A DNA stretch of 28,693 bases. Origin: a virus. The stretch is from the IMG/VR virus record IMGVR_UViG_3300020445_000048, positions 1 through 28,693 of that record. One strand, given 5' to 3'. Each line of letters starts with the position of its first letter. Within the stretch, counting starts at the first letter, position 1. Under the pieces are notes generated by a model, which worked only from the letters and a program-made list of their open reading frames with translations, did not search any database and had not been told where the DNA came from. This document shows, piece by piece, positions 3,001-20,573 of the stretch. Position numbers and translations under genes: made by a program.

Positions 3001-6000
3001 GACATGAAGATGACAATCGGTAATAACTGGTTGAAGGGCACTGAGACACATAAGAATAGCAATGCTGCATATAACCCAACAACGGGTATTATGACACTGA
3101 CTGTTGTTAATCATGGATTCTCAAATGGTGATACAGTTAAGATTGCACTAGAGTCACTGAATTTCACATGTGCATTAGATGGTAACTTCAGCGAGCACCG
3201 TTATCCACGTGCTACCGACCCAGGTAACACTGACAATATGTGGATGACAGTTATGAATGTAACTGACGATACCTTTGATGTCCAAGTATTAAACACAGTA
3301 CCTTCCACTAATACCTCTGCTCACGTATACGTTCCTGAGACTGGTATTACACCTACTGGTGCTGCATTTAACACCACAACAGGTGTTATGACTATTACAT
3401 CTGCTGCTCATTACCTACAGAATGGTGATTACATTAAGATTGCAGATGGTGCAGTAACATTCCGTTGTGATGAAGATGGTCAGGCAACCGATCATGCTTA
3501 TCCACGTGTTACCGACCCTGTAAGTGGTAAGTGGGTTAAGGTATCTAACGTTACTAACACAACATTCGACTTCCAATGCTTAGAGAATGTCCCTTGCACT
3601 AATGCTACTACTCACGTATTCCAGTCTGCTGTTGCTAACAGTATTGAGAGAGGAAACGTTGTTAAGGGTGGTGATTCAGTCAAGATTCAGACTAACTCTC
3701 TAACATTTACTTGTGACCAAGATAGTCATGCTACTAACCATACCTATCCTAGGTCTACTGGATCCAGCTACACTGGTAACTCAGGTGCTGACCCATATTA
3801 CAACACTTCTATTCCAATCGCAGATGTAGAGACTACTAATCATACTGCTACTACTGCTGATTACAACCCACTAACGGGTGTAATGACCCTGACTGTGCCT
3901 AACCATGGTTTAACTACACATACAGCAATGACTGCTACTGATGGTAGTTACAACCCTGCTACGAGTGTATTGACACTTAAGGTTGGTGCCCATGGAATGA
4001 AGGATGGTGATAAGATTCTACTCACTGACGGTGCTGTAACATTCCGTTGTGATAAGGATGACAATTCAACATCTCACACATATCCACGTGCTACTGACCC
4101 TGTATCTAACAAGTGGTTAACAATTTCTAACGTAACTACTGATTACTTTGATGTAGTCACAGGTCGTTTCTTCGGTCAGAATGCAATTACAAATAATTCA
4201 GTCCATACATTCTCCTCAGGTGCTCAAGGTGGTATCTACAAGGCGAATGATAAGGTTAAGATAGACCCTGAAACTCTCGTATTTACATGTGCTAAGGATA
4301 ACAACGTTACTAACCATGCTTATCCTAGAAGGACTGACCCATCTCATCATGAGTGGTTACCAGTATTCTCTGCTGCAACAAATACCTTCCTGGTTCATGT
4401 AGGTAAGTCACAGGATACATCAACACATACATTCGTTAGGGCACTACCTAGTGGAATCGAAAGACCTACTGGAGTTATCACACTTAACGTTGGTAAGTCA
4501 TCTAACACTACTACTCATACATTCATATCTGCTGCTACTGGAGCACTACAGACTGGTGGAAACCACGTCCACTCCTTTGTTGCTGCAACTGCTCTAACAC
4601 CTACTAACGCTGGTTATAACCCAACTACAGGTCTTATGACTCTGACTATTAACGGTCATGGTCTACAGTTTGGTGACAGGGTAATGCTTAACGATAGTGC
4701 AGTAACATTCCGTTGCGACCAAGACGCACAAGCATCTGACCACTCATATCCACGTAATACTGACCCAACAAGTCGTCAGTGGTTACCAATTCAGTCCGTC
4801 ACAGAAAATACTTTTGACATTAAAGTCCTATTTGACGTACCATCTACTAACGTAACAACTCACGTATTCCAATCTGCTGCTTCTAATAGCGTTAACACAT
4901 ATGCTATTGAGAGAGAAGGTGACAGCATTCAAATCGGTACTGAGTCACTCATCTTCACATGTGGAATGGATTCACATGCGACTAACCACCTATATCCAAG
5001 AGCATCCGACCCTGTTGGTTCTAATTCCATCAAGGTATTAGATGTAACAAGTCAACTTAAGAGTGCTACTAACGCTGCTTATACCGCTTCTACAGGTGTG
5101 ATGACACTTACCATGGGGTCATCTCATGGCATCTCTAACGGAGATAGAATTAAGATTAATCCTTATTCAATCACACTGAAATGTGAGAAGGATAACTATG
5201 CTACTGAGCACAAGTATCCACGTCCTACAGACCCATATTTCGACCAGTGGTTGACTGTTTCTAATTCTCAAGCAACTACTATTGATGTTAACGTTGGCAT
5301 TTCTGGTGATAATGACAAGTATGCACATACCTTCCATCAAGCAGATGCTAATAGTATTCAGCATCAGTCTGGTCATATTAGAGTTAACGTAACTGATGGT
5401 AAAGCAACCTCTAACACAACTGAGCATAGATTCGTTGGATATACAGGTTTAACTCCAATTATTGCTGGTGGTAACTATAGTCACCAGTTTGTAAGTGCAA
5501 ATTCTGGTGCTCTCCACACTGGTGGTAATTACGTCCATAAGTTTGTTTCTGCAACACACTTGACACCTACTGGTGCTAACTACAACCCAACAACGGGTGT
5601 CATGACACTAACCAAGTCTTTACATGGTCTAGTTAATGGTAGTTACATTAAGATGGCAGAAGGTGCTGTAACCTTTACATGCACACAGGATAGCAATGCA
5701 TCCTATCACTCATATCCAAGGTCTTCTGACCCAATGAATGATACATGGATGAGGGTATTCGATGTTACTAATAATAACTTCAGTGTCCAAGTATTAAACG
5801 ATGCTCCATCTGTCAATACAACTGCTCATACATTCAAGTCTGCTGCTAAAAATAGCGTTACTATTGCTACCTTCCAGAAAGCAAATGATACTGTTTCTCT
5901 AGCACCTAACTCCTTGACATTTACATGTGCAATGGATAGTAATGCTACTAACCACACATATCCAAGGACATCTGACCCTGCATACAATGAGTCATTGAAG

Positions 6001-9000
6001 GTTATTGATGCTGGTATTACTACACATACTCCAACAGGAGCAACTTATACACCATCTAGCGGTAACCTTGACCTAACAGTTACTGGTCATAACTTCTCTA
6101 ATAGTGACAAGATAATGATTGAGGATGATGCCCTTCATATGACTTGCACAATGGATGGTAACTCATCTACTAAGTCATACCCAAGAGGATCTGACCCAAT
6201 CAGTAGACAGTGGAGAGAATTGAGTGTTGTTGATGCTAACACTATTAGAATTAACGTTGGTACAACTGCTAACACAACTAAGAATGTCTTAGATGCTGAC
6301 TATACTCCATCTACAGGTAAGATGGAACTGAATATCGGTGCTCACACCCTTAAGTCAGGTCAGAATATCAAGTTGGCAGACAACTCACTGACATTCACAT
6401 GTGACCAAGATAGTCATGGTAGCAACCATACTTATCCAAGGACAACTATTGACACACATACAGCAACTGCTGCTACTTACGATGGTAATACTGGTTATCT
6501 GAATCTATACGTTGCTGGTCATGGACTAGATGACGGGTCACTTGTTAAGATTACTGATAACACTATGACCTTCCGTTGCTCCTTTGATAGCAATGGTTCT
6601 GACCATACATATCCACGCTCCTCTGACCCAATCAGCGGTAAGTGGATGGAAATAAAGAATGCTGATGCCAATACATTTGATATATTCGTAGGTAAGTCAC
6701 CATTCGTAGGTTACGACCCACAAGATGTTGACTACAACCCAACTACAGGTGTAATGAAGGTTGTTGTTGGTAATCACAGTGTTGAGGTTGGTGAGAAGGT
6801 TTGGCTTGCTAAGGAAGGATTCGTATTTACATGTGCTCAAGACAGTCATCAGACTGAGCACAAGTATCCAAGAGCAAGTGACCCTGCATATAATACACCA
6901 GTAACTGTTACTGCTGTAGAAGATGGGTCAATCTCATTTAATATTCTAAGTAGTGCTCCATCTAGTAACACTACTGCTCATACATTCAAGAAGTCTACTG
7001 GAGTAACACCTACTGCTATTGGATATTCATCCTCAACGGGTGCAATGACAATTACAGTTGAAGGTCATGGAATGGTAGATGGTGAAGTAATTAAGATTGA
7101 TGATTATGGACTTACATTTACATGTAATAAGGATAGTCATGCTACTGAGCATCTATATCCTCGTCCTACTGACCCTGCATCTGGTAAGTGGTTAGAAATC
7201 TCTGGTGTAACTACTGATACCTTCGCTGTTAACGTAGGTGCCGCTGCTGATACTAACGACCAACATGCACATACATTCATCACTGCTAAGAAGGGTAGCA
7301 TCACTCGTGCTGCATTCAAGAGTGGTGGTGCTTATACTCATGCTTTCCAGTCAATGACTTCTGGTGGAATATCCCAGAAGCGTGACAGACTTTATGACCA
7401 CTCAATACATATCGAAGGGGTTGGTGATGCTAAGTATACTGCAACTAATGCTGCCTTTACACCTACTACAGGTGACTTGGTACTTACAGTTGCAAATAAC
7501 CCATTCTCGAATGGTGACAAGATTAAGTTAGCAGATAACAGCCTCATATTCACATGTGCAATGGATGCACATGATACTGAGCACTCTTATCCTAGGTCTA
7601 CTGATCCTGCTTCAGACAATTACTTGGTGGTCAAGGATGTAAGTGGAAATAACCTAACAGTCAATGTGGGACCAACTCCTACATCTCCATATAACGTTGG
7701 TGGTGCAACATACGAGCCTACTACAGGTGAGATGGTCCTAACCATAGGAGCTCACCCATTCAGTGCTGCTACATCACATACACCAACAGGTGCGTCATAT
7801 ACTGCCACTACTGGTATGATGACTGTAACCCTTAACGATCATGGATTCGTTATAGGTGACAGAGTTAAGTTTGCTGAGAATTCCTTGTCAGTGTCTTGCA
7901 CAATGGATGGAAACATCACTAACAAGACATACCCAAGAGCATCAGACCCAGTTGCACAGCGTTGGTTAGAAGTCTCGAATATTACACAAAACACATTTGA
8001 TGTAAACGTCGGTGCTTCCCCATTAGAAACATTCAGCGTTACTGCTGCAACATATAACCCAACATCAGGTGATTTGGCACTAACAATTGGTGCTCACTAT
8101 CTGACTGTCGGAGAAAGTATTAAACTTGCAACCGATTCACTTGTATTCACTTGTGACTTCAATGGTGACGGTAACACAACTCAGAAGACATATCCACGTG
8201 CTACTGGATCTACTGCTGTAGGTCAAGGTGGATCTGATTATGTCTACGACACTGCAATTACTATTACTGCGGTAACTGCAACTACCATAACAATGAATGT
8301 TAACGGTGGTCAGGGTGCTATTACAGACCAGACTGCTCACAACTTCGTCCTAACTGGTAGTGCTGCAAACTGTGTAACTGCTGGTGGTGGATACACTCAC
8401 ACATTCGTAAGTGCCGTAACTAACGGTATGAAGAAGTCAAGCAACTCAATTTACATCGAAGATGATAAGTTGATGTTTAAGTGTGCTCAGGACAACTTCT
8501 CTACTACTCACACATATCCACGTGCTGCTGGTGTTACAACATCAACGGTAACTGCTGCTGACTTTAATCCTACTACAGGATTCCTCAGATTAACAGTTGC
8601 TGGTCATGGATATGAGAGTAGTGATTGGATTAAGATAGCAGATAACTCATTAACATTCAGATGTCAGCAAGATAGTTTAGGTAGTGACCACACATATCCA
8701 AGGACTACTGACCCAATTAGCGGTAAGTGGGTGCAGATTCGTAACGTAACTACAGATACATTTGATGTATTTGTAACTGCTACTGCTCCTTCCACTAACA
8801 CTACTGCTCACGTATTCCAGAGTGCTTCTGCTAGCGGTATTACTCATAAGAAGGATCCTTTCTATGATGCTCCAGTATCGATTGAAGCAGTAACTGGTTC
8901 AACCATTACTATTAACGTTGGTAAGTCTCCTAATACAACTGTCCATACATGGTCTGGTGGAGTCAGCGAGGGTGCTATAAGAGGTGGTGGTAACTATACA

Positions 9001-12000
9001 CACGTCTTTAAGTCTGCTGTTGCTGATGGCATCCATTGGAAAGATTCAACAATTATTATTGATGCTGGTGCTGCCACCTATACTGGAGAGCACAGATTCG
9101 TTTCTGCTTCATCTGGTGCAGTCAAGGTTGGTGGTGACTTCACTCATACCTTCACTGGTGCTAAGACAGGTTGTCTACACAGACAGAGTGGATGGATTAC
9201 TCTTGACGTTGATGTAGCACCTTCTGCTAACCAGTATGCACATACATTTGTTTCTGCTCAACCTGGTGCCTTAATTGGTGGTGGTAACTACAGTCACGTA
9301 TTTGTATCTGCTGCAACAAACGGAATTGAGAAGGCAAATGAATACGTCTATATTGAAGATGGAAGTATCGTATTCACTTGTGATAGAGATGACAACAAGT
9401 CTAACCACGGATATCCTAGGGCATCTGACCCAGGTAGCGATGAGTGGTTGGCAGTACATAACACTACATCTACAACATTCGATGTGATGTTAGGTAAGTC
9501 TCCTGACACTTCAGCACATACATTTGTATCTGCTGCACCACATGCAGTTAAGAAACAAGACGGCACTATTACCGTCAACGTCGGAATTGGTAGCTACGAG
9601 CATAAGTTTGTTAGTGGTGTTAGTAACGCTGTGGTTGCTTCTGTTGGTGGTCAATTGACTGCTGCTGCTGGCACATCATACGACCCAGTATCAGGTGAGT
9701 TAGTCCTAGAAGTAGGAAGTCATTCTGTTGCTGCTACTGAGACAATCACTATTGCTAATAATGGATTAACATTCACTTGTGCTAGAGACGCTCACGCTAC
9801 TAACCACACATATCCAAGAGCATCTGACCCTATGAGTGGTCAGAACATTCAAATTGATTCTGTAACTGCTACAACAATTACAGTTAACGTTGGAGTTGGA
9901 CTTGGTGCTGGTAAGACAGACATTCATACATTCGTAAGTGCTATTTCAGGTGCAGTTATTAAGGGTGGCGACTACAGACACTCATTTGTAAGTGCTGCTT
10001 CAAATTGCGTTACTATTGTAGACACTGGTGCTACATTGACACCTACAGATGGTTACTACAACCCAATTACAGGTGACTTAACACTGACAGTTGCATCTAA
10101 CACTTTAAATCAACGTGATAATGTCACACTTGCTCCTGAATCAATAGTATTCACTTGCACAAGTGACCAGAATGCTACTAACCATGCATACCCAAGACCA
10201 ACTGATTATGCTGATGCGAGGGTTCTACCTATCACAGCAGTTAATTCTTGGGCATACCCAGTCAGCACAAAACTCTCCTACTGGAGAAGTCGTCTGGTAG
10301 ATTACAACTACACAGGTAATGAAGCATCACAAGTAGAAACTGATATTGCTACATTAATCCAGTTTGTAACTGATGGTATAGGAAATCCTGGTAATGTTAA
10401 TGGTAGAAGCTACACTATGCCAATTGCATGGCCTGTTAAGTACAGTCCAGAAGTTGTAGTAAGAGACTTAAGTATCACTTACGACTCTGCAAATGGTGGA
10501 TCTGATCAGTTTGGCACATGGAATCAAACATGTCCAGAAAGTGCAGCTGCACTTAGCACATTGACTGATATCTTCCTCAATACAATTACTCAAGCAGCAG
10601 AGAATAATGTTAACTATCTAACTGCTAGTGTAACTAAGACATTCCCATACAACGGTAACGTCAACTATCAGCAAGGTACCTGCTATGATTGCACATCAGC
10701 AGCAGACACCTTATTTGACATCATGGTTGATACCCTTGGTGGTGGATATAAGAATAGTCAGAGAGTTGCTAATGTATTACTATACAACACTCAATCCATT
10801 GCTGGAAGATCATTCGGTGAGACTCTATCAACATATCCAACAACCAACCTTACCATAGCATTCGCTGAGGATGTCCTTAAGGCAGTCCGTTATGACTTGG
10901 TAACTGGTGGTAATGCTGGATCATTCAAGTTATCACAAACATGGTTTGACGGTGAAGGTAACTTCATTGCATTCCCAACTGTTATTAGGTCTCACTTATT
11001 ATTCTGCTTAACACGTATACGTGAGTATATTAAGAGTGTCATGTATCTTCATACCTCTGATACAGTTTGGCAGAACTATGATGTATACATTCCTTCAGAG
11101 AGATTTGAGTGGAATCAGGAAGCAGTTGAATTTATTGTTGACTCTTCACTCAACCCAATAGAATTTGCACTTGAAAGGTCAAGTTTCGCAACTGAAGCAC
11201 GTATACAGTTTATCCCTTCTACTGATGTTACTAACTTAAGTAACAAGTATGAGGTAGGTAAGGACTGGAATACAGACCCTGCACTTGTCCTTCTAACTCC
11301 AGAAGTTGAAGTTGGATTCGAGAGAGCAGAATATAGAGTCCGTATTAATCAACCAAACAACTTCAGACGTGGTGATATTCTTACATATATCCCTGCATCT
11401 TCTCAGTCATTGTCTGGTTTAGCAAATCAACCATACTTCTACTGCTTAACTGCAACTGCTGAGTGGTTAGAAATTGGTGCTTCTTATACTCATGATGGAA
11501 GATTTAGACAATTCCAAGTAGATACATCTAACTCTGGTGCTCAAATCTTAGCAGTAGAGAGAAGAAGTGGTATCGTAAGGACTGCTCCTACATACCCATC
11601 TGACCCTTCTGATACTCCAATTCAGGGTGGATTTAACCCTGCTGACGTTATCTTCGGGGGCACATCTGATGCTTCTGCTGAGGTATCATCTATCACAATG
11701 AATGCAGCGAATGTAAGACAACTATTCACTCACTTTATAACCTCTACTCAGTCACAAAACAACCTTGTTTATGAGACATTCACCAACGGTGAAGAGGTTG
11801 TGGTACAAGGTGCGACAAACAATAAGGGAGTCCTACTACAAGCAGGACCAGTCAGTGATACTGGCACTTCATTCTTGAAACTGCATACGATTGCTGGAGT
11901 AATTAGTGCAGCGGATGTATTGGAAGGTGTTGAAAGTGGTACTACTGCTACTGTTGTTAGCTCCTCGGATCGCTTCTTCACAAATCTTAAGATGGGAAGT

Positions 12001-14019
12001 TTCAATCAAGGTGATTGGTTCTTCGATAGAGATTCTTCAGTTGAAGCTTACATCTCAGAATATGCTAATAAGTCTGGTAGTCTAACAGGTAACACTGGTG
12101 GTCGTATCACTATTGACGTTGAAACAATTAAGGATCCTTGGATCACTGGAGACGTTATTTACGGTAGTGTTACTTCTTACATCCTTGACGTTAAGGGTAT
12201 CAGTGGTACACAACTACAACTTAACCAGTATGTCCACGGACGTAGTGTTTACGAATTAAATCTAGGCACTGCAATTATTGACACTGGTGTTAATGATACA
12301 TTCAACGTTGGTGATGAGGTCATCTTACTACAAGGTACAACAGAGAAGAATCCAGGATTCCATGCAACTGTAACCAAGTATACAAATGACCCAGATAACG
12401 GCATCCACAAACTCTGGATTGGTAACATAGTCCCAGTTGGTATTGGTGCTCCTATATCTGAAATAACCAACCCTAACAACAACATTGGTAAATTGGTAAT
12501 TGGGTCTAACTTCCCAACAATTTACGCTGGTGTTTCTAGTTACACTACATCAGATTACTCATCTTACGCTAAGGTAGTTGCTATCGAGCAAGCAGGTATT
12601 ACTGCTACTGTTTGGGTAGAGGATGCTGTTGGTGAATTCGTTGACAATATGTCACTCGCATCCGATGATGGATGGGGTGGTGCTGTTTCCTCTGCTAGAA
12701 AACTTGAAGGTAGAGTTGACAGATACTTTAGAGGATTTGATGGAGTCCAGACTACATTTGACCTCACTGTTGCTAACGGTGAAGCATACTTCCCAGATCC
12801 TGCTGGTCACTTACTAGCATTCGTTAATGGTATTCTACAACCTCCAGGTGCAACTAACGCATACGTTGCATTCTCTGACAAGATACAGTTTACTGAGCCA
12901 CCTGTAGTTGGATCTCAATTCGTTGGTTACTACGTTGGTAAATTACGTCAGTTAGATGACATATCATTCGAGTTTGACTCCTTGAAGTCTTCCTTCAACC
13001 TCAAGCGTAGTGGATTATTCTACTCCTTGACACTGACTGAGGGTGTTTCTTCTAACGTTATACGTCCAGAAAACAACATCATCGTTTCACTTAACGGTAT
13101 CATTCAGGAACCAGGAGTTGCATACGAGATTGTTGGTTCACGTATCATCTTCGCTGAAGTCCCAAGATACGGTGCAACCTTCGTTGGTTTCTCATACATT
13201 GGTAGTGACGCTGACGTTATCGCTGCTACTGTGGTACCACCTATTGAAGCTGGTGACCACCTCATGATTGAGGGTGAAGAATTCCAGAGAGAAGTTGCTC
13301 TAATTGAGTCTTCTAACTCTTTGATTACATTTGAATACACTGGATCAGTTAAGGGTAGAAACGCTGACGCACTTGCTAACATAACTTCTGGACAAATCAC
13401 TAACGCAATCCTCACCAACCCAGGTGACGGTTACACCTCACGTCCTAACGTTGACGTTATCTCCTCTTCAGGATTTGACTCACGATTGAAGGCACTCATG
13501 GGTGTATCTCGTGTTGACGTTAAGACAGAAGGTTCTGGTTATGCATTACCAGCAATCGCTATCGATAACGAAGTCCCTGATGACTGGACACCTCCTGAAG
13601 GCGGTCCTATTAACGGTGGATTTGACGTACTCGCAGGTGAAGGTCCTGGTAATGAAGAGGGTGGTGGAGTTACTCCTGGCACAATCGCAATTCTTACAGA
13701 CCCAGTTAACGTAACAGTTAACCAAGGTCAGACTGCTGCATTCACAGTGGTTACCACCGTAACTAACAGTGAGACAATGAATTATCAGTGGCAGAAGAAG
13801 GAGTATGGTACATCCACATGGAGTAACATCATTGGTGCTAACACAGCAACATTCAACACAGGAAATACTGCACAGGCAGACGATGGTGATGAATACAGAG
13901 TCGCTATTACCGCCAGTGGCGCAACTCCTGTTTACTCACTATCTGCTGTATTGAGCGTCCAGACTGGAGCGACTGTAATCAGTAACTTCAATCCTACTTT
14001 AATATTTGACGACATCTAA
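1..14019 (+). CDS. Giant modular virion structural / fibre-like protein, 5' end outside window
   Basis: The frame is open from base 1; the first in-window ATG (37) is preceded by twelve sense codons, so the true start lies upstream. Residues below count from that Met. Order of parts: two copies of a helical domain (about 31-120 and 163-240) marked by GG-x-[VI]-N-C-x2-DV-x-D; a Gly-rich linker near 270; a LamG/concanavalin-like domain (about 281-450, with W-E-I-R and KLWIDG); irregular beta repeats with 28 YPR motifs (about 469-3402); a second helical block (about 3407-3682); beta-rich fibre modules, including two copies with NGI-[LI]-Q-x-PG (about 4238-4400); a GDGY/GSGY module; and an Ig-like domain (about 4552-4641) before a short tail ending in FDDI. 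The size and place upstream of gp8 suggest a baseplate-attached fibre or adhesin. T4 has gp7 in the equivalent place, but I see no gp7 similarity. Family-level function is inferred. Confidence 0.85.
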   Translation, partial: RSQNDRFLDAVEMIQTNKKVIATEVVSIMNDMSKFEGLNIPGGSVNCEDDVIDMIDSICHDIQYDCNEKTYDAAALYIETENNSLKHIEGEYEATIATVKILRDVCALTMRNAFGRDYWEGGFNTTTPVQGYEQNPRDTVFKLCGDAIDGNIRYIAEQAVAAGTVQFPSLSIPGGPINCVHDVTDILRSLVFNLKYGGNNMLQYSTEFYVNSGGNLLHVTSQSTETTWIMNKAKEFAIRAMKDQVITNNAGHNVGQRYYDAVPKPTNQLLISEKAGTGGGGTGDSGGITTTMNNIVTREFDFGNTIISTTDSSTGLVADEDAVFRCITKLPSSPIDGVIFESGGTTAGVWFGVRDSGTYLRLRAGNGANSYAAGASYASDTGLAMLDLQISTLSAYFDGGDHELVWEIRVGGNVGTGAGRVKLWIDGVSVGEATTPGTASTGLTGGSGIFTDTNAAGFGASTSSVPSGEASAQNTFTVNVGATPKIAYDVSTAAYDATTGDLVLNVGSHDFTNNTRIQLKTNSLIFSCTEDDNATNHSYPRSGDPAGNTAIDIIDVGVVPFTPTQAVYKPKTGIMTLTVANHNFADSTNYTATDAEYDPDSGIIEITVNNHGFTTGDQVKINTGSLIFTCSQDNHASKHGYPREKDPAGDRWLAIEEVTTHTFKVQVGQTAKREYNVSNAIYDQATGELQLEVGDHNFVEATSHVAEDAEFTAKTGMLKISCSQHGFGDGDQILIQDNSMTFTCDMDNHYTNHVYPRTTDPASGKWLSVENSTDNDFEVNIGESPIKHFTPTGASYNSATGALTLTIGTHTLTVGTHVKLDGYSLKFTCAMDNYKTIHSYPRVSDPYHNEPISITAVTADTITINVGTTPQVNHVPTDADYDPLTGDMVLAIGAHDLRPMSRYSVSNAVYNPATGLMTITSNAHNIGTGDMVKIRPNSLTFTCAMDSNATQHSYPRTTDPVAGQWLPVTGSTANTFDVNVGISNSINYTPSAVDFTPTTGDMKMTIGNNWLKGTETHKNSNAAYNPTTGIMTLTVVNHGFSNGDTVKIALESLNFTCALDGNFSEHRYPRATDPGNTDNMWMTVMNVTDDTFDVQVLNTVPSTNTSAHVYVPETGITPTGAAFNTTTGVMTITSAAHYLQNGDYIKIADGAVTFRCDEDGQATDHAYPRVTDPVSGKWVKVSNVTNTTFDFQCLENVPCTNATTHVFQSAVANSIERGNVVKGGDSVKIQTNSLTFTCDQDSHATNHTYPRSTGSSYTGNSGADPYYNTSIPIADVETTNHTATTADYNPLTGVMTLTVPNHGLTTHTAMTATDGSYNPATSVLTLKVGAHGMKDGDKILLTDGAVTFRCDKDDNSTSHTYPRATDPVSNKWLTISNVTTDYFDVVTGRFFGQNAITNNSVHTFSSGAQGGIYKANDKVKIDPETLVFTCAKDNNVTNHAYPRRTDPSHHEWLPVFSAATNTFLVHVGKSQDTSTHTFVRALPSGIERPTGVITLNVGKSSNTTTHTFISAATGALQTGGNHVHSFVAATALTPTNAGYNPTTGLMTLTINGHGLQFGDRVMLNDSAVTFRCDQDAQASDHSYPRNTDPTSRQWLPIQSVTENTFDIKVLFDVPSTNVTTHVFQSAASNSVNTYAIEREGDSIQIGTESLIFTCGMDSHATNHLYPRASDPVGSNSIKVLDVTSQLKSATNAAYTASTGVMTLTMGSSHGISNGDRIKINPYSITLKCEKDNYATEHKYPRPTDPYFDQWLTVSNSQATTIDVNVGISGDNDKYAHTFHQADANSIQHQSGHIRVNVTDGKATSNTTEHRFVGYTGLTPIIAGGNYSHQFVSANSGALHTGGNYVHKFVSATHLTPTGANYNPTTGVMTLTKSLHGLVNGSYIKMAEGAVTFTCTQDSNASYHSYPRSSDPMNDTWMRVFDVTNNNFSVQVLNDAPSVNTTAHTFKSAAKNSVTIATFQKANDTVSLAPNSLTFTCAMDSNATNHTYPRTSDPAYNESLKVIDAGITTHTPTGATYTPSSGNLDLTVTGHNFSNSDKIMIEDDALHMTCTMDGNSSTKSYPRGSDPISRQWRELSVVDANTIRINVGTTANTTKNVLDADYTPSTGKMELNIGAHTLKSGQNIKLADNSLTFTCDQDSHGSNHTYPRTTIDTHTATAATYDGNTGYLNLYVAGHGLDDGSLVKITDNTMTFRCSFDSNGSDHTYPRSSDPISGKWMEIKNADANTFDIFVGKSPFVGYDPQDVDYNPTTGVMKVVVGNHSVEVGEKVWLAKEGFVFTCAQDSHQTEHKYPRASDPAYNTPVTVTAVEDGSISFNILSSAPSSNTTAHTFKKSTGVTPTAIGYSSSTGAMTITVEGHGMVDGEVIKIDDYGLTFTCNKDSHATEHLYPRPTDPASGKWLEISGVTTDTFAVNVGAAADTNDQHAHTFITAKKGSITRAAFKSGGAYTHAFQSMTSGGISQKRDRLYDHSIHIEGVGDAKYTATNAAFTPTTGDLVLTVANNPFSNGDKIKLADNSLIFTCAMDAHDTEHSYPRSTDPASDNYLVVKDVSGNNLTVNVGPTPTSPYNVGGATYEPTTGEMVLTIGAHPFSAATSHTPTGASYTATTGMMTVTLNDHGFVIGDRVKFAENSLSVSCTMDGNITNKTYPRASDPVAQRWLEVSNITQNTFDVNVGASPLETFSVTAATYNPTSGDLALTIGAHYLTVGESIKLATDSLVFTCDFNGDGNTTQKTYPRATGSTAVGQGGSDYVYDTAITITAVTATTITMNVNGGQGAITDQTAHNFVLTGSAANCVTAGGGYTHTFVSAVTNGMKKSSNSIYIEDDKLMFKCAQDNFSTTHTYPRAAGVTTSTVTAADFNPTTGFLRLTVAGHGYESSDWIKIADNSLTFRCQQDSLGSDHTYPRTTDPISGKWVQIRNVTTDTFDVFVTATAPSTNTTAHVFQSASASGITHKKDPFYDAPVSIEAVTGSTITINVGKSPNTTVHTWSGGVSEGAIRGGGNYTHVFKSAVADGIHWKDSTIIIDAGAATYTGEHRFVSASSGAVKVGGDFTHTFTGAKTGCLHRQSGWITLDVDVAPSANQYAHTFVSAQPGALIGGGNYSHVFVSAATNGIEKANEYVYIEDGSIVFTCDRDDNKSNHGYPRASDPGSDEWLAVHNTTSTTFDVMLGKSPDTSAHTFVSAAPHAVKKQDGTITVNVGIGSYEHKFVSGVSNAVVASVGGQLTAAAGTSYDPVSGELVLEVGSHSVAATETITIANNGLTFTCARDAHATNHTYPRASDPMSGQNIQIDSVTATTITVNVGVGLGAGKTDIHTFVSAISGAVIKGGDYRHSFVSAASNCVTIVDTGATLTPTDGYYNPITGDLTLTVASNTLNQRDNVTLAPESIVFTCTSDQNATNHAYPRPTDYADARVLPITAVNSWAYPVSTKLSYWRSRLVDYNYTGNEASQVETDIATLIQFVTDGIGNPGNVNGRSYTMPIAWPVKYSPEVVVRDLSITYDSANGGSDQFGTWNQTCPESAAALSTLTDIFLNTITQAAENNVNYLTASVTKTFPYNGNVNYQQGTCYDCTSAADTLFDIMVDTLGGGYKNSQRVANVLLYNTQSIAGRSFGETLSTYPTTNLTIAFAEDVLKAVRYDLVTGGNAGSFKLSQTWFDGEGNFIAFPTVIRSHLLFCLTRIREYIKSVMYLHTSDTVWQNYDVYIPSERFEWNQEAVEFIVDSSLNPIEFALERSSFATEARIQFIPSTDVTNLSNKYEVGKDWNTDPALVLLTPEVEVGFERAEYRVRINQPNNFRRGDILTYIPASSQSLSGLANQPYFYCLTATAEWLEIGASYTHDGRFRQFQVDTSNSGAQILAVERRSGIVRTAPTYPSDPSDTPIQGGFNPADVIFGGTSDASAEVSSITMNAANVRQLFTHFITSTQSQNNLVYETFTNGEEVVVQGATNNKGVLLQAGPVSDTGTSFLKLHTIAGVISAADVLEGVESGTTATVVSSSDRFFTNLKMGSFNQGDWFFDRDSSVEAYISEYANKSGSLTGNTGGRITIDVETIKDPWITGDVIYGSVTSYILDVKGISGTQLQLNQYVHGRSVYELNLGTAIIDTGVNDTFNVGDEVILLQGTTEKNPGFHATVTKYTNDPDNGIHKLWIGNIVPVGIGAPISEITNPNNNIGKLVIGSNFPTIYAGVSSYTTSDYSSYAKVVAIEQAGITATVWVEDAVGEFVDNMSLASDDGWGGAVSSARKLEGRVDRYFRGFDGVQTTFDLTVANGEAYFPDPAGHLLAFVNGILQPPGATNAYVAFSDKIQFTEPPVVGSQFVGYYVGKLRQLDDISFEFDSLKSSFNLKRSGLFYSLTLTEGVSSNVIRPENNIIVSLNGIIQEPGVAYEIVGSRIIFAEVPRYGATFVGFSYIGSDADVIAATVVPPIEAGDHLMIEGEEFQREVALIESSNSLITFEYTGSVKGRNADALANITSGQITNAILTNPGDGYTSRPNVDVISSSGFDSRLKALMGVSRVDVKTEGSGYALPAIAIDNEVPDDWTPPEGGPINGGFDVLAGEGPGNEEGGGVTPGTIAILTDPVNVTVNQGQTAAFTVVTTVTNSETMNYQWQKKEYGTSTWSNIIGANTATFNTGNTAQADDGDEYRVAITASGATPVYSLSAVLSVQTGATVISNFNPTLIFDDI
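1441..10245 (+). repeat. Coding repeat array: 28 irregular beta modules with a C-x2-D-x5-H-x-Y-P-R signature
   Basis: This stretch of the giant gene encodes repeats of the type YNPTTGVMTLTV, then HG...GD.(V/I)KI, then a [FT/FR]-C core, then YPR-x-[TS]-DP-x-SGKW and finally TFDVNVG. The YPR tyrosines fall at residues 527, 629, 743, 828, 942, 1056, 1155, 1237, 1349, 1429, 1571, 1653, 1727, 1893, 1975, 2048, 2133, 2192, 2277, 2374, 2518, 2632, 2719, 2827, 2887, 3126, 3259 and 3385. The Cys is present in all 28 copies, the Asp in 27, and the His in 25 (Lys in the copies at 2048, 2632 and 2719). A second small module, H-[TV]-F-x-S-A, is interspersed. The protein pattern is strong, while DNA copies are diverged, suggesting old duplications under selection rather than fresh tandem expansion. 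Confidence 0.9.
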
Positions 14020-14033: not shown

Positions 14034-15635
14034 ATGGCTGCAACTGCCACATACAACTCAGCTACCAAAGCACTCTCGGTGAGCTCGGATGCACTTCCGA
14101 CTCCCGTGAGTTATGGCACGTTCCCTAATAGTGAGAACCCCAACACCGTGCAGGTGCATGATTGGGATCATACCTTTGAGTATCGTGGTGGGACATTTGG
14201 CACTACTAGACAGTTTGAAGACAATACCTGGACACAGGATGGTTTCATTAGGTCTATTAATATATCAGTAAATGATTTAACTAATTTTACTGGTGGGTCA
14301 CCTAATATAGCACCAGGCGATCATATCATGATTGACTTCGGTGACAATAAAAAACAGAAATTTATATTCAGAGGCACAGTATTCACATCTATTGCTGGTG
14401 AATTTTGGTTAGCAACTGATAATAGACTTGATATTATAATGGCAGATTCTGGCACAGGTCAGAATGGCACATATACATTTTATGACCAGAGAAACGGTAG
14501 GACTACTACTCCATTAGGTGCCATTGGCATGTCTGCTAATGGTGTTGCTATATTCAATCCTTCTGCTGGTACAGGTGGTAACCCCCCATCAGGATTCAGT
14601 TGGGTCGCTGGTGGAGACGCACCTTTTGTAGATTTTGGTGAGGATTCATGTGGTGGACACCCTCAAGAGCAGGGAATGTATCATTATCATGATCCAGACT
14701 TTTTAGAATGTTGGAAAGCCAACTCGACGATGGCATCCTACAATGACTACTACGGTAGCACACAATATAATGGTAACAATATTCGTCATCCAGACGGTCA
14801 CTCTAAGATGATTGGAATTTCCTTTGATGGATTTCCTATCTACGGTCCATATGGGTATAGCACCCCATGGAATAGTTTGAGTGGCACTAAAGTCATGACT
14901 ACTTCCTACTCAGTTAAAGCAACTGAAGCACCAGGAAGACCTGACTATGGTAATGACCAAGACAACCCTCCCGCTGGTACCTTAATGGAGGACTGGGAGT
15001 ATGTTGAAGCGACTGGAGATTTGGATAGTTTCAATGGTAGATTTGGTGTAACACCAGAGTATGCTAATGGCACTTATGCTTATTTCGTAACTGTCGATCC
15101 ATTGAATACGGACAATGTTAAGTTCCCATTTATTATAGGACCATTAACTAGAGAGACTATCACTGCACCTGCTAATAACGGGGCAGACCCACAAGGACCT
15201 CCTGGAGGCGGTGGAGATGGTGGTGGTGGCGGACCTGCACCAACATTACAGATTGGAGCACAACCACAAAACGTTACTGTCAATGGTGGTGAGACTGCTA
15301 CATTCACTGTTACATCTCAGATTATACCTGAGAATGGACCTATGGCTTATCAGTGGTATAAGTCTACTGACGGTGGTTATGCATATGCTGCTGTAACTGG
15401 AGCAACAACTAATAGTATATCAGTCACTGCTTTGCAGTATATGACTGGATACAGATATCGTTGTCGTATTACAGGACCAGTAGGAGCTCCTCCAGCAGAG
15501 AATTCGCCATTGGATTCAAATGCTGCAATATTAACCGTAACAGGTGGTGACGGTGGTGGTTCATCTACTGCTAACAGATTCGATAGTACTGCTAGCGGAT
15601 TCGATTCCACACAACAAACCTTCGATGGCACCTAA
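14034..15635 (+). CDS. YHYH-domain virion protein with C-terminal Ig-like domain
   Basis: 533 residues. The YHYH family hallmark is at residues 216-219, followed by HPDGHSK and DGFPIYGPYGYS, which are typical of this domain (roughly residues 140-380). Next come a Gly/Pro-rich linker (about 383-402) and an Ig-like beta domain (about 401-500; NVTVNGGETATFTV, YQW, YRCRI). The C-terminus repeats FDS/FDG three times. The Ig domain resembles the one ending the giant protein just upstream. YHYH domains are found in secreted bacterial proteins and cyanophage structural proteins, and their biochemical role is unknown. The gene begins 14 bases after the giant gene, downstream of a late-promoter-like box and without a visible Shine-Dalgarno site. 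I infer a virion surface or baseplate decoration protein. No signal peptide or membrane segment is apparent. Confidence 0.85.
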   Translation: MAATATYNSATKALSVSSDALPTPVSYGTFPNSENPNTVQVHDWDHTFEYRGGTFGTTRQFEDNTWTQDGFIRSINISVNDLTNFTGGSPNIAPGDHIMIDFGDNKKQKFIFRGTVFTSIAGEFWLATDNRLDIIMADSGTGQNGTYTFYDQRNGRTTTPLGAIGMSANGVAIFNPSAGTGGNPPSGFSWVAGGDAPFVDFGEDSCGGHPQEQGMYHYHDPDFLECWKANSTMASYNDYYGSTQYNGNNIRHPDGHSKMIGISFDGFPIYGPYGYSTPWNSLSGTKVMTTSYSVKATEAPGRPDYGNDQDNPPAGTLMEDWEYVEATGDLDSFNGRFGVTPEYANGTYAYFVTVDPLNTDNVKFPFIIGPLTRETITAPANNGADPQGPPGGGGDGGGGGPAPTLQIGAQPQNVTVNGGETATFTVTSQIIPENGPMAYQWYKSTDGGYAYAAVTGATTNSISVTALQYMTGYRYRCRITGPVGAPPAENSPLDSNAAILTVTGGDGGGSSTANRFDSTASGFDSTQQTFDGT

Positions 15636-15661: not shown

Positions 15662-17152
15662 ATGCCTAAGCAAAATCTAAATATTGGCTCGGCAGCTAAC
15701 GACGGGACTGGTGATAGTCTGAGAGATGGTGCTATTAAACTTAATAGTATCATAGATGAGTTATACACAGCTCTCGGTAACGACACCAACCTTCAGATTA
15801 GCGTCGGGACACCAGCAAGCGGTCAATTCCTTAAATGGAATGGAACTGCGTTCGTTGAGGGTGGATTGAATGCACTTTCAGAAGACTTAAGTGTCAACGG
15901 ACATGATATTATATCCTCAAGTAATGGTGATATAACTCTCAAACCTAACGGTACGGGAGACATTAAGTTTTGGACAGGAAGCACTGGATCTGCTCTGACT
16001 ATAATTGATGGTGCTGATGGTAAGTTAAAATGGTCTAATCACTTTGATGAAGCTGCCAATCTACCAGACGCAACTACCTATCATGGTATGTTTGCTCATG
16101 CTCATTCGGAAGGAAAAGGATACTTTGCTCACGCTGGTAACTGGATAGAAATAGTTGATGTCACATCAGGCATTGGTAAACTTAGTGACGTTGACATGAC
16201 AGTTGGAGGTGGACCCTCTGACGGACAAGTATTGAAATGGCAAGCAAGTACCTCGAAATGGATAGCTGCGAATGATGAAACTGCATCTGGTGGAGGCGGT
16301 GGCACGACTCAAAACCTCTTTGAAGGATTCACTGCTGACTCTGGTAGTACTACTGCTAGTGCTGCTACTGATGTCCTTACAGTTGCGGGAGGCACTAACA
16401 TCTCGACTTCGATCTCAGGAGACACCCTGACGATCAACATGACGGGCACCTTAGGTGACCCAGCTCAAAATCTTTACAGTGTAATTGGAAGTGATTCTGG
16501 AAATAAAACTGCTACATCTCAGACTAGCACGATTAACTTCGTTGGTGGTTCTGGAGTATCTACTGCTATCTCTGGAGATAACCTCACAATAACTAATGAC
16601 TCTCCAAACGTAAGTCAAGAAGTTTATAAGACAGTTACTGGAGATACTGGTACCACTACAGCACAGTTGGCAACGTCAACTCTAAGTGTTGTAGGTGCAG
16701 CGAATCATATAGCATCTGCTGTTACATCAAACACTGTAACTTTAAGTATTGTCAACCCATTACCTGCTACTGCAACAGAAGGTGATACTCTCATCTATGA
16801 TGAGCAGAATGGTGTGTGGGTTGTATCAGAGAGTCCTTCTATTGGATTCACTGTTTCGTCATCTGGATCCTCTTCATATAGGTTTACTGGGGGTGGTGTT
16901 ACTTCATCCACTGATAACCCAACCATATATGTCTATAGGGGTTTCACTTATAGATTCTATAACTCAACTGGTGCAGGTCACCCATTTGCCTTAAGGCAGA
17001 CCTCAGGTGGCACCGCTGTTACCAATGGTGTTACTGGAACACAAACAGGTGTGCAATATTGGACAGTCCCTCAGACACTAGCTGCTGGAACAACATATGT
17101 CTATCAATGCACCCTTCACTCTGCAATGGTAGGAAACTTAGTAGTAGTCTAA
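15662..17152 (+). CDS. Tail-fibre-like protein with C-terminal cupredoxin-like domain
   Basis: 496 residues. The N-terminus (NIGSAANDGTGDSLRDGAIKLN, then ELYTAL) matches a module common at the start of phage fibre proteins. Residues about 75-110 form a beta-rich segment with SNGDITLKPNGTGDI. Three degenerate repeats follow (about 221-262, 272-312 and 320-365) of the form DSG-x-TTA ... LTVAGG ... ISGDTLTI. The last 100 residues read as a cupredoxin fold: TIYVYRGFTYRFYN, then GHPFAL, and finally YQCTLHSAMVG. Candidate copper ligands are H440, C483, H486 and M489; the C-x2-H-x2-M spacing is that of amicyanin. The role is presumably a host-contact fibre. Copper binding is an inference from the ligands, and similar domains may be metal-free. 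Its stop is one base from the next start, which suggests translational coupling. Confidence 0.8.
   Translation: MPKQNLNIGSAANDGTGDSLRDGAIKLNSIIDELYTALGNDTNLQISVGTPASGQFLKWNGTAFVEGGLNALSEDLSVNGHDIISSSNGDITLKPNGTGDIKFWTGSTGSALTIIDGADGKLKWSNHFDEAANLPDATTYHGMFAHAHSEGKGYFAHAGNWIEIVDVTSGIGKLSDVDMTVGGGPSDGQVLKWQASTSKWIAANDETASGGGGGTTQNLFEGFTADSGSTTASAATDVLTVAGGTNISTSISGDTLTINMTGTLGDPAQNLYSVIGSDSGNKTATSQTSTINFVGGSGVSTAISGDNLTITNDSPNVSQEVYKTVTGDTGTTTAQLATSTLSVVGAANHIASAVTSNTVTLSIVNPLPATATEGDTLIYDEQNGVWVVSESPSIGFTVSSSGSSSYRFTGGGVTSSTDNPTIYVYRGFTYRFYNSTGAGHPFALRQTSGGTAVTNGVTGTQTGVQYWTVPQTLAAGTTYVYQCTLHSAMVGNLVVV
16322..16757 (+). repeat. Three-copy fibre repeat, about 45 residues each
   Basis: Inside the fibre-like gene, three successive segments share the pattern DSG or DTG, then TTA/KTA, then a hydrophobic strand ending in GG or GA, then I/V-x-T-x-[IV]-SGD-x-LTI. 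The third copy is the most diverged (TSNTVTLSI). Such repeats are typical of beta-helical or beta-prism fibre shafts. The divergence at DNA level makes recent duplication unlikely. Confidence 0.6.
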
Positions 17153-17153
17153 T

Positions 17154-19004
17154 ATGACAAGAACCGTCCCTGGTAGTGGTGCTCAAATAACCCCGATATT
17201 TAATAGTATCTTTGGGGTCAGGGATGTCTATGTGAACGATGGTGGTAAGGATTACGATCCTGCTGACCCACCAAGACTTCGGATAGGCAATTGCGGCACA
17301 CCAATTAGAGATGCAGTATTAAGAGCAGTAATCGCCAATAATGGTGAGATAATTGCTGTTGAGGTATTGGATCCAGGTGAGGGTTATGACCCTTTACGTC
17401 TTGTTATTACTGATGAAAACTCATCTCAGACCGCAGCTGGTAACGTATATCTTAAGGATGATGGTACTGGTGCATTAGACTTTATACAGATAACCTCTCC
17501 AGGTGACCTGTATTTTAATTCTACTGCTGAGATACAAGGTGGTGGTGGGTCAGGTAGTGAGTTAGTCCCTGTTACTGGACTGGTAACTGGTCTTGCTATT
17601 GAAGAAGAAGGAAGAAACTATACTGAGGAAGATGTTAACATCATTATCTCAGGTGGTGGTGGAGACGGTGCTACTGGTGTTGCTAGTGTCAATCGTTTTG
17701 GAGCAGTCACATCTATTACTCTGACTAATCAGGGTGAATTCTTTGAGACACCTCCTCTTATACAAATAATTAAAGGCGGCGGTAGTGGAGCAACGGCCGA
17801 AGCGTTTATTAACCTAGGTGTTATTACAAATATTGACCTCTTGTCTGGTGGTGGGGGATATACCACAGACCCTGAGATTATATTTACTAGAGACACCGAC
17901 CTTGTTAGGTCTGCTAGAAATAGGCAGTCACTTAACTCAGTCCTCTACAACCTCACAGGTCTATTAGAAGACGCAGACTCAAACCAAACTACTCTGCATG
18001 TTGAGACAACCAATCCTTATCCAGGATCAGGTAAAGTCTTGATTGGTAGAGAAGTTATTAGATATACTGGTAAGACTGCTACTTCAATAACTGGTTGTGA
18101 TAGAGGTATTAATTTCAGATTTGACCAGAAGGTTATTCTTGATAACCTACAGGATGACCCAAACACAGGTCTTACTCAGTATAATTTCCAAGTTACTGAC
18201 AAAGTAAGACGTGTTATTGAAAGCTCTACTAACAGAGTTGCTATTGTATATGACTGGGATCCTGTTAATAGGGCACTTTACCTTACCTTCCAAGTTGATG
18301 AATTAGCATTCATCGATGGTGGTAGGTCTAATGAGAAGGCAAAGATTATAGCATTCGTTGCTGGTACTGCTGGTGCGTCAAGCACTGGTGTAGCACCACA
18401 TAATGTGGTTGAATCTATTGGTAATGATATTGTTACATTCACTTCACCCCTTGGTGCTATCCTAAATAGAGCATTCGAGGACATAGCGGAATTAGATGGC
18501 CTTGGAGATGGTATTGCTGACTTAATCAATACTGGCACAGAGTTTGAGAATCAAATCTCACTAGATGGAGGTATAGCTTCCTCACTCTATGGTATCGAAG
18601 AGACATTAGGTGGCACAAACACAACCCTATTCCAGGCTGGTGACCAGATATATGACGGTAGTCAGAATTCATTAGTTGCAACCATACAAGGTGCTGGTGC
18701 ACTGGGTGATGGTGATGCTCATGTATCAGGTGCTGTCATCAAAGCAACATATACTGCATCCTCTGCTGCATTTACTGCGGTTGAGGCATCCGAAGGACTC
18801 ACTTCGGGACTTACAGCAACAAACACAGCAGTTGCCGTTGGAGATACTGCCACGGAAGTTGTTGTAACAGTTAAAAGTATGACTTCAGCAGGTGCAAACT
18901 ATAAGTTCCAGAAGGGCGAAACCCTTAGAGGTAACTCAACGGGTGCAACCGCAGTCATAGATTCTATAGAATATACTACCTACCTCAGAGATGAGGAAGA
19001 TTAG
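17154..19004 (+). CDS. Virion structural protein of glycine-rich beta modules
   Basis: 616 residues, family not identified by name. The first 250 residues hold several copies of a module in which I-x-x-[VI]-x-[VL] is followed by G-x-GY, then P-x-[IL]-x-I and a GGGGSG-type loop (for example the GEGYDP and GGGGYTTDP copies). Around residues 275-330 is a motif with IGREVIRYTG and CDRG, related to the RG-x2-GT element seen in many tail proteins. The C-terminus contains GETLRGNSTGATAVID, a small module that recurs in the DUF4815 protein. The gene starts one base after the fibre-like gene (TAATATG) and has no well-placed Shine-Dalgarno site, so it is probably translationally coupled. Its position directly before gp8 suggests a baseplate or tail-tip component. 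It could stand in for a T4 baseplate wedge subunit, but no sequence evidence supports that. Confidence 0.75.
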   Translation: MTRTVPGSGAQITPIFNSIFGVRDVYVNDGGKDYDPADPPRLRIGNCGTPIRDAVLRAVIANNGEIIAVEVLDPGEGYDPLRLVITDENSSQTAAGNVYLKDDGTGALDFIQITSPGDLYFNSTAEIQGGGGSGSELVPVTGLVTGLAIEEEGRNYTEEDVNIIISGGGGDGATGVASVNRFGAVTSITLTNQGEFFETPPLIQIIKGGGSGATAEAFINLGVITNIDLLSGGGGYTTDPEIIFTRDTDLVRSARNRQSLNSVLYNLTGLLEDADSNQTTLHVETTNPYPGSGKVLIGREVIRYTGKTATSITGCDRGINFRFDQKVILDNLQDDPNTGLTQYNFQVTDKVRRVIESSTNRVAIVYDWDPVNRALYLTFQVDELAFIDGGRSNEKAKIIAFVAGTAGASSTGVAPHNVVESIGNDIVTFTSPLGAILNRAFEDIAELDGLGDGIADLINTGTEFENQISLDGGIASSLYGIEETLGGTNTTLFQAGDQIYDGSQNSLVATIQGAGALGDGDAHVSGAVIKATYTASSAAFTAVEASEGLTSGLTATNTAVAVGDTATEVVVTVKSMTSAGANYKFQKGETLRGNSTGATAVIDSIEYTTYLRDEED

Positions 19005-19037: not shown

Positions 19038-20573
19038 ATGGCGTTACTTACCGACCAATTTAGAATATTTACTGCCGAGAGGTTCAGGAAGGCCCTTGAG
19101 GGTCCTGATGCTACACAATCTGACCTATTGGCAGGTGCTAGTCGGGATCGTCTATACGTCTTCATCGGTAGACCACAACCGTGGGATAACGAGAATGCAC
19201 CTCCAGACCCAGTAGATTCATTCCAAGAATTTTCCGATGACTATTCGGATATGATATCCTTGAAGAGAGTGTTAGCTAATGACACCATTCAAGTTATCCG
19301 TCGTACTGACTGGATTCCCCCAGAGCAAACCACTGGTGGTCTGGGTTATGTTTATGATATGTACCGCCATGATTATTCCTCGACTAAAACAGCATCGTCA
19401 GGTGCTACGAAGTTATATGATGCGGACTTTTACGTTGTTAACTCGTCCTATCAAGTATACAAGTGCATTTACAACGGCACATCTCCTTCTGATCCTAACG
19501 GTAAACCTTCTACTGTTGAACCTACAGGAACGTCCACCAGCATTATCACAACTGCTGATGGTTACCGTTGGAAGTATATGTACACGATCCCTGTTGGTCA
19601 AGTCTTAAAATTCTTCTCTAACGAGTATATGCCTGTGCTATCAGATACTGCTGTTGTAGCAGACGCTGTTGGTGGAGAGATTGACACAGTTATTATTGCA
19701 TCATCTGGTGCAGGATATAACAACGGCACCTATGAAAACGTCCCAATTAAGGGTGACGGTGTAGGTGGTCGTGTATCACTCGTTGTTGATGGTGGTCGTA
19801 TTGTATCTGCCACTGTAACATCTGGTGGTAGTGGATATACATTCGGTAAAGTAATTATTGATGAAGTAAACGGTATCGGAGCTGGCACAGGAACAGGTGG
19901 TAGCGTCGAAGTCGTAATTGCTCCAGTTGAAGGTCATGGTGCTGTCCCATCTACTGAGTTGGGTGGTTTCAGAGTCATGATTAATACAAAGTTTACATAC
20001 GATGAGGGTAGTGGTGACTTCCCAACTGATAACGACTATCGTCGTATTGGTCTAGTCATTAACCCAAACAAGTATGGCACTCAGGAGTTAACTTCTGAGT
20101 TAACATTATCTGCAACGAAGGCGGTGATCTTCTCTCCTACGTTTACAGGTAATTTCCAGACTGATGAAATTGTAACCCAGTCCCGAACTGTAGGTGGTCA
20201 GCAAGTGACTGCTAGAGGTCGGGTTATTTCATGGAATGCAATTACTAAAGTTTTGAAATATTATCAGAATAGGATTGACGGTGTATTCCCAGAATTCACT
20301 GGAAACCTAATTGAATTTGAAGGTGGTAACCCAGTTGTGGGTGCTACTTCAGGTGCTTCTGCTGACCCAGACATCAACTTCCCGATTGTTTCTGGATCCT
20401 CTACGAGGGTTATTAACAACGCTGAGTATGATTTGGGTATGGCATTCACTAATGGTTACGCTAAAGCTGAAGTTGACCCCAACTCAGGTGAGGTTATTTA
20501 CATAGATAACAGAGGTGCGATTACTCGTGCTGGCGACCAAATCGAAGACATCAAGATCGTAATCGAGTTCTAA
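19038..20573 (+). CDS. 8: T4 gp8-like baseplate wedge subunit
   Basis: 511 residues. Recognised by collinear matches with T4 gp8 (334 residues). The N-terminal QFRIF ... FIGRPQPW with PPDPVDS corresponds to KFRTE ... FGRSEPW in T4. DGYRWKYMYTIP with NEYMPV (from D174) corresponds to DGYVWEYLFEIP with NEYIVV. Next, RV ... RRIGLVINP corresponds to RV ... RQISIITNP. Finally, SGEVIYIDNR ... DQIEDIKI near the C-terminus corresponds to SGEMIYMENR ... DQTEEINI. The extra length sits in two insertions: about residues 205-300, made of GAGY/GSGY glycine-rich modules, and about 360-480, which includes a GRVISW module. In T4, gp8 is part of the baseplate wedge with gp6, gp7, gp10, gp11, gp25 and gp53. 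The same role is expected here. This is the most secure identification in the window. Confidence 0.93.
   Translation: MALLTDQFRIFTAERFRKALEGPDATQSDLLAGASRDRLYVFIGRPQPWDNENAPPDPVDSFQEFSDDYSDMISLKRVLANDTIQVIRRTDWIPPEQTTGGLGYVYDMYRHDYSSTKTASSGATKLYDADFYVVNSSYQVYKCIYNGTSPSDPNGKPSTVEPTGTSTSIITTADGYRWKYMYTIPVGQVLKFFSNEYMPVLSDTAVVADAVGGEIDTVIIASSGAGYNNGTYENVPIKGDGVGGRVSLVVDGGRIVSATVTSGGSGYTFGKVIIDEVNGIGAGTGTGGSVEVVIAPVEGHGAVPSTELGGFRVMINTKFTYDEGSGDFPTDNDYRRIGLVINPNKYGTQELTSELTLSATKAVIFSPTFTGNFQTDEIVTQSRTVGGQQVTARGRVISWNAITKVLKYYQNRIDGVFPEFTGNLIEFEGGNPVVGATSGASADPDINFPIVSGSSTRVINNAEYDLGMAFTNGYAKAEVDPNSGEVIYIDNRGAITRAGDQIEDIKIVIEF

Follow-up and report, generated by a model that had tools for sequence, protein, structure and literature searches.

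A cupredoxin domain with a conserved type-1 copper ligand set in a gp9-like baseplate protein of marine cyanophages

The C-terminal 106 residues (391–496; positions 16832..17149, + strand) of a gp9-like protein are predicted to form a cupredoxin domain that retains the four ligands of a type-1 copper site. The protein is encoded in a 28,693-base virus record (hereafter, the window), which contains a section of the baseplate region of a T4-like marine cyanophage. Judged from sequence, the domain is probably metal-competent, and we are inclined to believe that selection for a metal, most probably copper, has maintained its site; this reading includes a metal-locked role without redox activity.

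The nearest isolates of the window are the cyanophages P-TIM40, P-RSM6, and S-WAM1. The gp9-like gene (15662..17152, + strand) encodes 496 residues, and the whole protein matches PHROG 677, which is labelled "baseplate wedge tail fiber protein connector" (E 2e-141). It is preceded by the gene for a YHYH-domain virion protein (14034..15635, + strand; PF14240, E 7.8e-37), and followed by the genes for a baseplate wedge-related protein (17154..19004, + strand; PHROG 708, E 4.8e-186) and the gp8 baseplate wedge (19038..20573, + strand; PHROG 438, E 5.9e-212, and PF09215). The same gene order, YHYH protein, gp9, gp9-neighbour, and gp8, is found in P-TIM40. The YHYH domain of the upstream neighbour is His-rich and its position is conserved. 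The cupredoxin model is also matched by A0A6J5L0K2, a viral protein whose name includes YHYH, and at one further locus (L122) the protein after gp9 has a weak YHYH match.

The N-terminal domain of the protein (residues 3–62; 15668..15847, + strand) is of the T4 gp9/gp10 type (PF07880, E 4.4e-10, above its cut-off) and is presumed to be the baseplate anchor. It is followed by three fibre-like repeats, recognized by eye in the translation and with approximate boundaries (residues ~217–268, 269–318, and 319–367; 16310..16762, + strand), and by the cupredoxin domain, which was delimited from the AlphaFold2 model, VIA, and the amicyanin profile match. In the PDB, the 496-residue protein matches T4 gp9 (E 1.1e-5) and T4 gp10 (E 1.4e-7). 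T4 gp9 (1qex, 5iv5) resembles it in the N-terminal domain (residues 2–110) and in its place next to gp8, whereas T4 gp9 has no match to the C-terminal part, where the cupredoxin stands instead. The gp9/gp10-type N-terminal domain and the place beside gp8 assign the protein to the T4 gp9-like connectors, and its homology to gp9 suggests that it is part of the virion. The protein has no export signal. The original prediction had called it tail-fibre-like; the tail association and the location of the domain at the C-terminal end hold, but PHROG 677, PF07880, and T4 gp9 identify a fibre connector, not a fibre as such.

The AlphaFold2 model of residues 391–496, calculated from 65 sequences drawn from the window and from viral or genome-contig relatives, has a pLDDT of 96.1, a pTM of 0.88, and nine strand segments. 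The leading PDB structure matches of the domain are all copper proteins, namely rusticyanin, CuNiR, amicyanin, and plastocyanin. Foldseek matched the model to rusticyanin (E 1.3e-4), and the best VIA match (Z = 10.4, 93 residues, rmsd 2.5 Å) is the N-terminal cupredoxin domain of CuNiR from Hyphomicrobium denitrificans (2dv6), which, like rusticyanin (1rcy, 2cal; Z = 8.5–9.3), corresponds to the whole gp9 domain. Both differ from the gp9 domain in their enzyme or electron-carrier context, and the identity is only ~20–25%. These domain-wide matches to solved cupredoxins, together with the amicyanin profile match described below, indicate that the C-terminal ~100 residues adopt the cupredoxin fold, as the original prediction had proposed. 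A chance motif was rejected on the grounds of the amicyanin profile alignment, the model, and the structure matches to copper proteins. No phage protein was present among the PDB matches of the family profile, and no solved member of the family was found.

The four ligands named in the original prediction were confirmed in the 496-residue translation: H440 (16979..16981), a predicted equatorial ligand in the motif GHPF; C483 (17108..17110), the predicted thiolate ligand and the sole Cys of the protein; H486 (17117..17119), the other predicted equatorial ligand; and M489 (17126..17128), the predicted axial ligand, which is Gln in a sister subfamily (all on the + strand). When the family profile was compared with amicyanin (E 7e-4 and 5.6e-4), the four residues aligned column-to-column with the four amicyanin ligands, and the C-x2-H-x2-M spacing is, as predicted, that of amicyanin. 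By fold and alignment, H440 would thus lie with C483, H486, and M489 at the known ligand positions, a placement at the level of the fold. The alignment and the conservation described below point to a type-1 copper ligand set, that is, His, Cys, His, and Met or Gln at the standard positions.

The domain is nevertheless not filed under the Pfam family Copper-bind (PF00127) or under amicyanin (TIGR02657), because its scores lie below the curated cut-offs: 15.8 bits (E 0.019) versus a gathering cut-off of 21.2 bits, and 15.2 bits (E 0.021) versus an equivalog cut-off of 110.2 bits, respectively. PF00127 gave a weak match in 19 of 28 family members, the best family member matched TIGR02657 with E 2.5e-6, and only 6 of 65 members were recognized by the plastocyanin model, with E 0.03 at best. 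The domain is a cupredoxin fold with the type-1 ligand set and a member of neither family. By sequence, amicyanin (1aac, 1sf3) is the best-scoring solved relative and has in common with the gp9 domain the C-x2-H-x2-M loop and the four ligands, whereas amicyanin is a free periplasmic electron carrier with His-Asn and the gp9 domain is part of a predicted virion protein with His-Pro. A Pro follows the first His (H440) invariantly in family 1, by which we mean the domain of the window; family 2 comprises a domain inserted into some gp9s and the domains repeated in the following gene. Asn usually follows the first His in amicyanin and plastocyanin, and multicopper oxidases have His-Pro, so that the Pro after H440 is not fatal to the reading as a copper site.

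A tblastn search with the domain of the window yielded 248 phage records at E<=0.01, all from Synechococcus, Prochlorococcus, "Cyanophage", or uncultured marine phages. A more distant member yielded 352 records, among them 343 named cyanophages, two Pelagibacter phages, one Actinomycetia phage, and one uncultured phage. For scale, gp8 relatives were found in 502 records, 458 of them named cyanophages; the gp8 and cupredoxin sets were counted separately and not intersected, and the record counts, which include many near-identical isolates or GenBank/RefSeq duplicates, are not independent. The domain recurs in gp9, the next baseplate gene, tail fibres, and other structural proteins, and one gp9 (L176:1384-3321) carries two cupredoxin domains, the inner of which has an axial Gln. 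Isolates that carry the domain include P-TIM40, S-SM1, and Syn9. Within the window, neither the family-1 nor the family-2 profile found a further copy. The original prediction had regarded a metal-competent cupredoxin at the end of a phage fibre as unexpected. With hundreds of records, the domain is standard in marine cyanophages, and the word unexpected has to be qualified accordingly.

Outside phage records, the domain occurs with its four ligands intact in a collagen-like protein from a Bacteroidetes (L256:4020-7052) whose start resembles a signal peptide; among the genome-collection matches, L255 aside, this one alone looks truly bacterial. A cellular origin through six other contigs (L249–L254) was rejected, as these proved to be cyanomyovirus-like contigs in genome bins, with gp8 78–95% identical to that of the window. 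They lie in assemblies labelled Nonlabens, Euryarchaeota, Flavobacteriales, and Rhodopirellula, probably owing to binning error or contamination. Recent capture of a host plastocyanin is not supported either: amicyanin models outscore plastocyanin, and no cyanobacterial chromosome with the family was found in one scan of a genome collection, for which the phage-like peptide patterns used make a weak test.

Across families 1 and 2 in all fetched loci, the pair formed by Cys and the second His is kept in 308 of 385 distinct domains and lost as a whole in the other 77, and not one domain is mixed (0/385). Random loss of the ligands across homologues had been named beforehand as the finding that would speak against the original prediction, and it was not seen at this pair. 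All four ligands could be aligned in 305 of the 308 intact domains, with Met in 216 + 57 and Gln in 32; of the remaining three, one (L050) is truncated by a contig end, and in the other two the alignment is faulty at the position of the first His, where one of them (L466/L090) does read GHG. H440 is invariant in all intact family-1 copies. The loop of family 1 varies with the ligands kept (C-x2-H-x2-M in 192 copies, C-x4-H-x2-M in 21, and C-x2-H-x3-M in three), and the axial Met is replaced by Gln in 32 copies, all of family 2. Blue-copper proteins are known to vary in both respects, in loop length among amicyanin, azurin, and plastocyanin, and in the axial Gln of stellacyanin.

The conservation in the first scans was partly built in, because the query peptides contained the Cys and His ligands. 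In a ligand-blind scan, for which the query was the 49 residues before H440 only, His, Cys, His, and Met were present in 51 of 51 untruncated distinct copies, 38 of which were identified by the C-x2/4-H pattern and 13, with C-x4-H-x2-M, were read from the sequences.

The ligands are absent from several relatives. In S-B43-type tail fibres, the His, Cys, and His are replaced by F, A/S, and T/V/I, respectively, and the Met is kept; a ligand-free tail-fibre domain still models as a cupredoxin (pLDDT 85.6, Z = 10.1). One member of the same family, 54% identical (L297), keeps GHPF...YYQCEYHASM. The gene that follows gp9 encodes an intact family-2 copy and, behind it, a second one that lacks the ligands and is highly variable in the columns that these once occupied; the family-2 domains that lost the ligands have ten or more different residues at the axial position. 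A tree calculated without the ligand columns requires at least two separate losses, since well-supported branches force two switches between the intact and the lost state; the tree comprises 131 columns with many forks open, and two losses are few events. A family-1-like domain in a 4908-residue open frame (L473; record G003, 46093-46347) has apparently lost its ligands as well and is a possible third independent loss, outside the tree. As the ligand-free relatives still fold as cupredoxins, the fold does not need the ligands, and therefore the fold alone fails to explain why the ligands are retained as a set.

Alternatively, the domain may be a cupredoxin-derived adhesion or joint module that binds no metal and in which the four residues persist for structural reasons. 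Apo cupredoxins keep their fold, the residues Y481, Q482, P441, Y430, and G427 are as invariant as the ligands, and the tail-fibre homologues manage without them, all of which would favour such a module. However, although the ligand-free homologues still fold, no copy keeps a partial Cys/His set, and a lone, free, reduced Cys kept in every intact copy would be hard to explain without a metal. We regard the metal-free module as unlikely.

The scarcity of copper in the cytosol, the uptake of Zn by cupredoxins in vitro or when over-expressed, and the description of iron as the tail-tip metal of other phages would fit a site that holds a metal other than copper, such as zinc or nickel, as a structural cross-link. 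Such a cross-link is nevertheless improbable, since His-Cys-His-Met/Gln on a cupredoxin fold is the copper set and the alternation of Met and Gln at the axial position is a hallmark of type-1 copper. That the domain serves as a redox or copper sensor, or as a receptor-binding electron-transfer contact with the host surface, appears very improbable: no redox partner is encoded in the 28,693 bases of the window, ligand-free versions work in fibres, and its occurrence in more than one copy, as well as in the following baseplate gene, tail fibres, and the bacterial collagen-like protein, fits a building module better, even though an intact predicted type-1 site at an exposed C-terminus, and the concentration of the domain in phages of marine picocyanobacteria, which are plastocyanin users, could be read in favour of such a contact. 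Electron transfer or copper sensing by the domain has found no support, and the other roles named in the original prediction, stabilization of the tip and binding of a host surface partner, are putative.

The reading that we prefer, selection for a bound metal, would proceed as follows. The predicted fold and the ligand set correspond to those of a blue-copper domain, and, in statistical terms, the ligands are retained together or lost together, irrespective of the fold. From this set-wise retention we infer that a metal is bound, most likely copper, either in the host cell or once the virion is outside it, in seawater or at the host surface; the latter two are considered because the protein lacks an export signal and the cytosol contains little copper. 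More tentatively still, the metal may lock the ligand loops on a trimeric, surface-exposed gp9 with no electron passed, and the locked loops would stiffen or fix the connection to the following fibre part or to a surface partner. Such a structural role is suggested by the location of the domain and the absence of redox partners. The bacterial collagen-like protein, which keeps the domain with its ligands, suggests that a filament, not a redox chain, is the common setting. In our view, the domain is a module for joining or adhesion, locked by a metal and not redox-active.

Many cyanomyoviruses carry the plastocyanin PetE (PMC3037559), which is a cupredoxin like the gp9 domain but is encoded by a separate small photosynthesis gene (an auxiliary metabolic gene). 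The gp9 domain is the C-terminal part of a 496-residue baseplate protein, not a free-standing carrier of the plastocyanin type, and it matches plastocyanin more weakly than amicyanin. A small protein of the gp9-domain type in S-SCSM2R (L083:4743-5249) is annotated as PetE in GenBank and is probably a mis-named gp9-type protein. Domains of the gp9 type can thus pass for plastocyanin photosynthesis genes in annotation.

The iron-bearing phage tail tips of the Ferrojan horse idea have a metal on a tail protein, as proposed here for the gp9 domain, but these are His-only sites on other folds, whereas the gp9 site is a Cys/His/Met site on a cupredoxin. Potential iron-binding domains have been described in the tail fibre of an Alteromonas phage (PMC11705849), and virion proteins of S-SCSM1 have been measured (PMC9602691). 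Cyanophage plastocyanin genes and iron in tails are known; a cupredoxin within a phage virion was not described in any of the open-licence papers searched, a scope within which absence is not proof.

Cyanophages are among the most abundant viruses of the sea. If their baseplates carry a genuine type-1 copper site, copper would join the parts list of the virion, beside the iron known from the tails of other phages, and cyanophages could be affected by the same trace metal that is limiting or toxic to marine cyanobacteria. It is doubtful, but would be of consequence, that type-1 copper centres are carried by the gp9 joint, by the wedge protein next to it, and by some fibres, and that copper from seawater or the host surface is needed for virion stability or attachment; the infectivity of cyanophages would then be tied to ocean copper chemistry.

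Elsewhere in the window, a 4660-residue protein (37-14019) contains 27 copies of the motif FTC-x2-D-x4-H-x-YPR, in which the Cys is kept, and the His in most copies.
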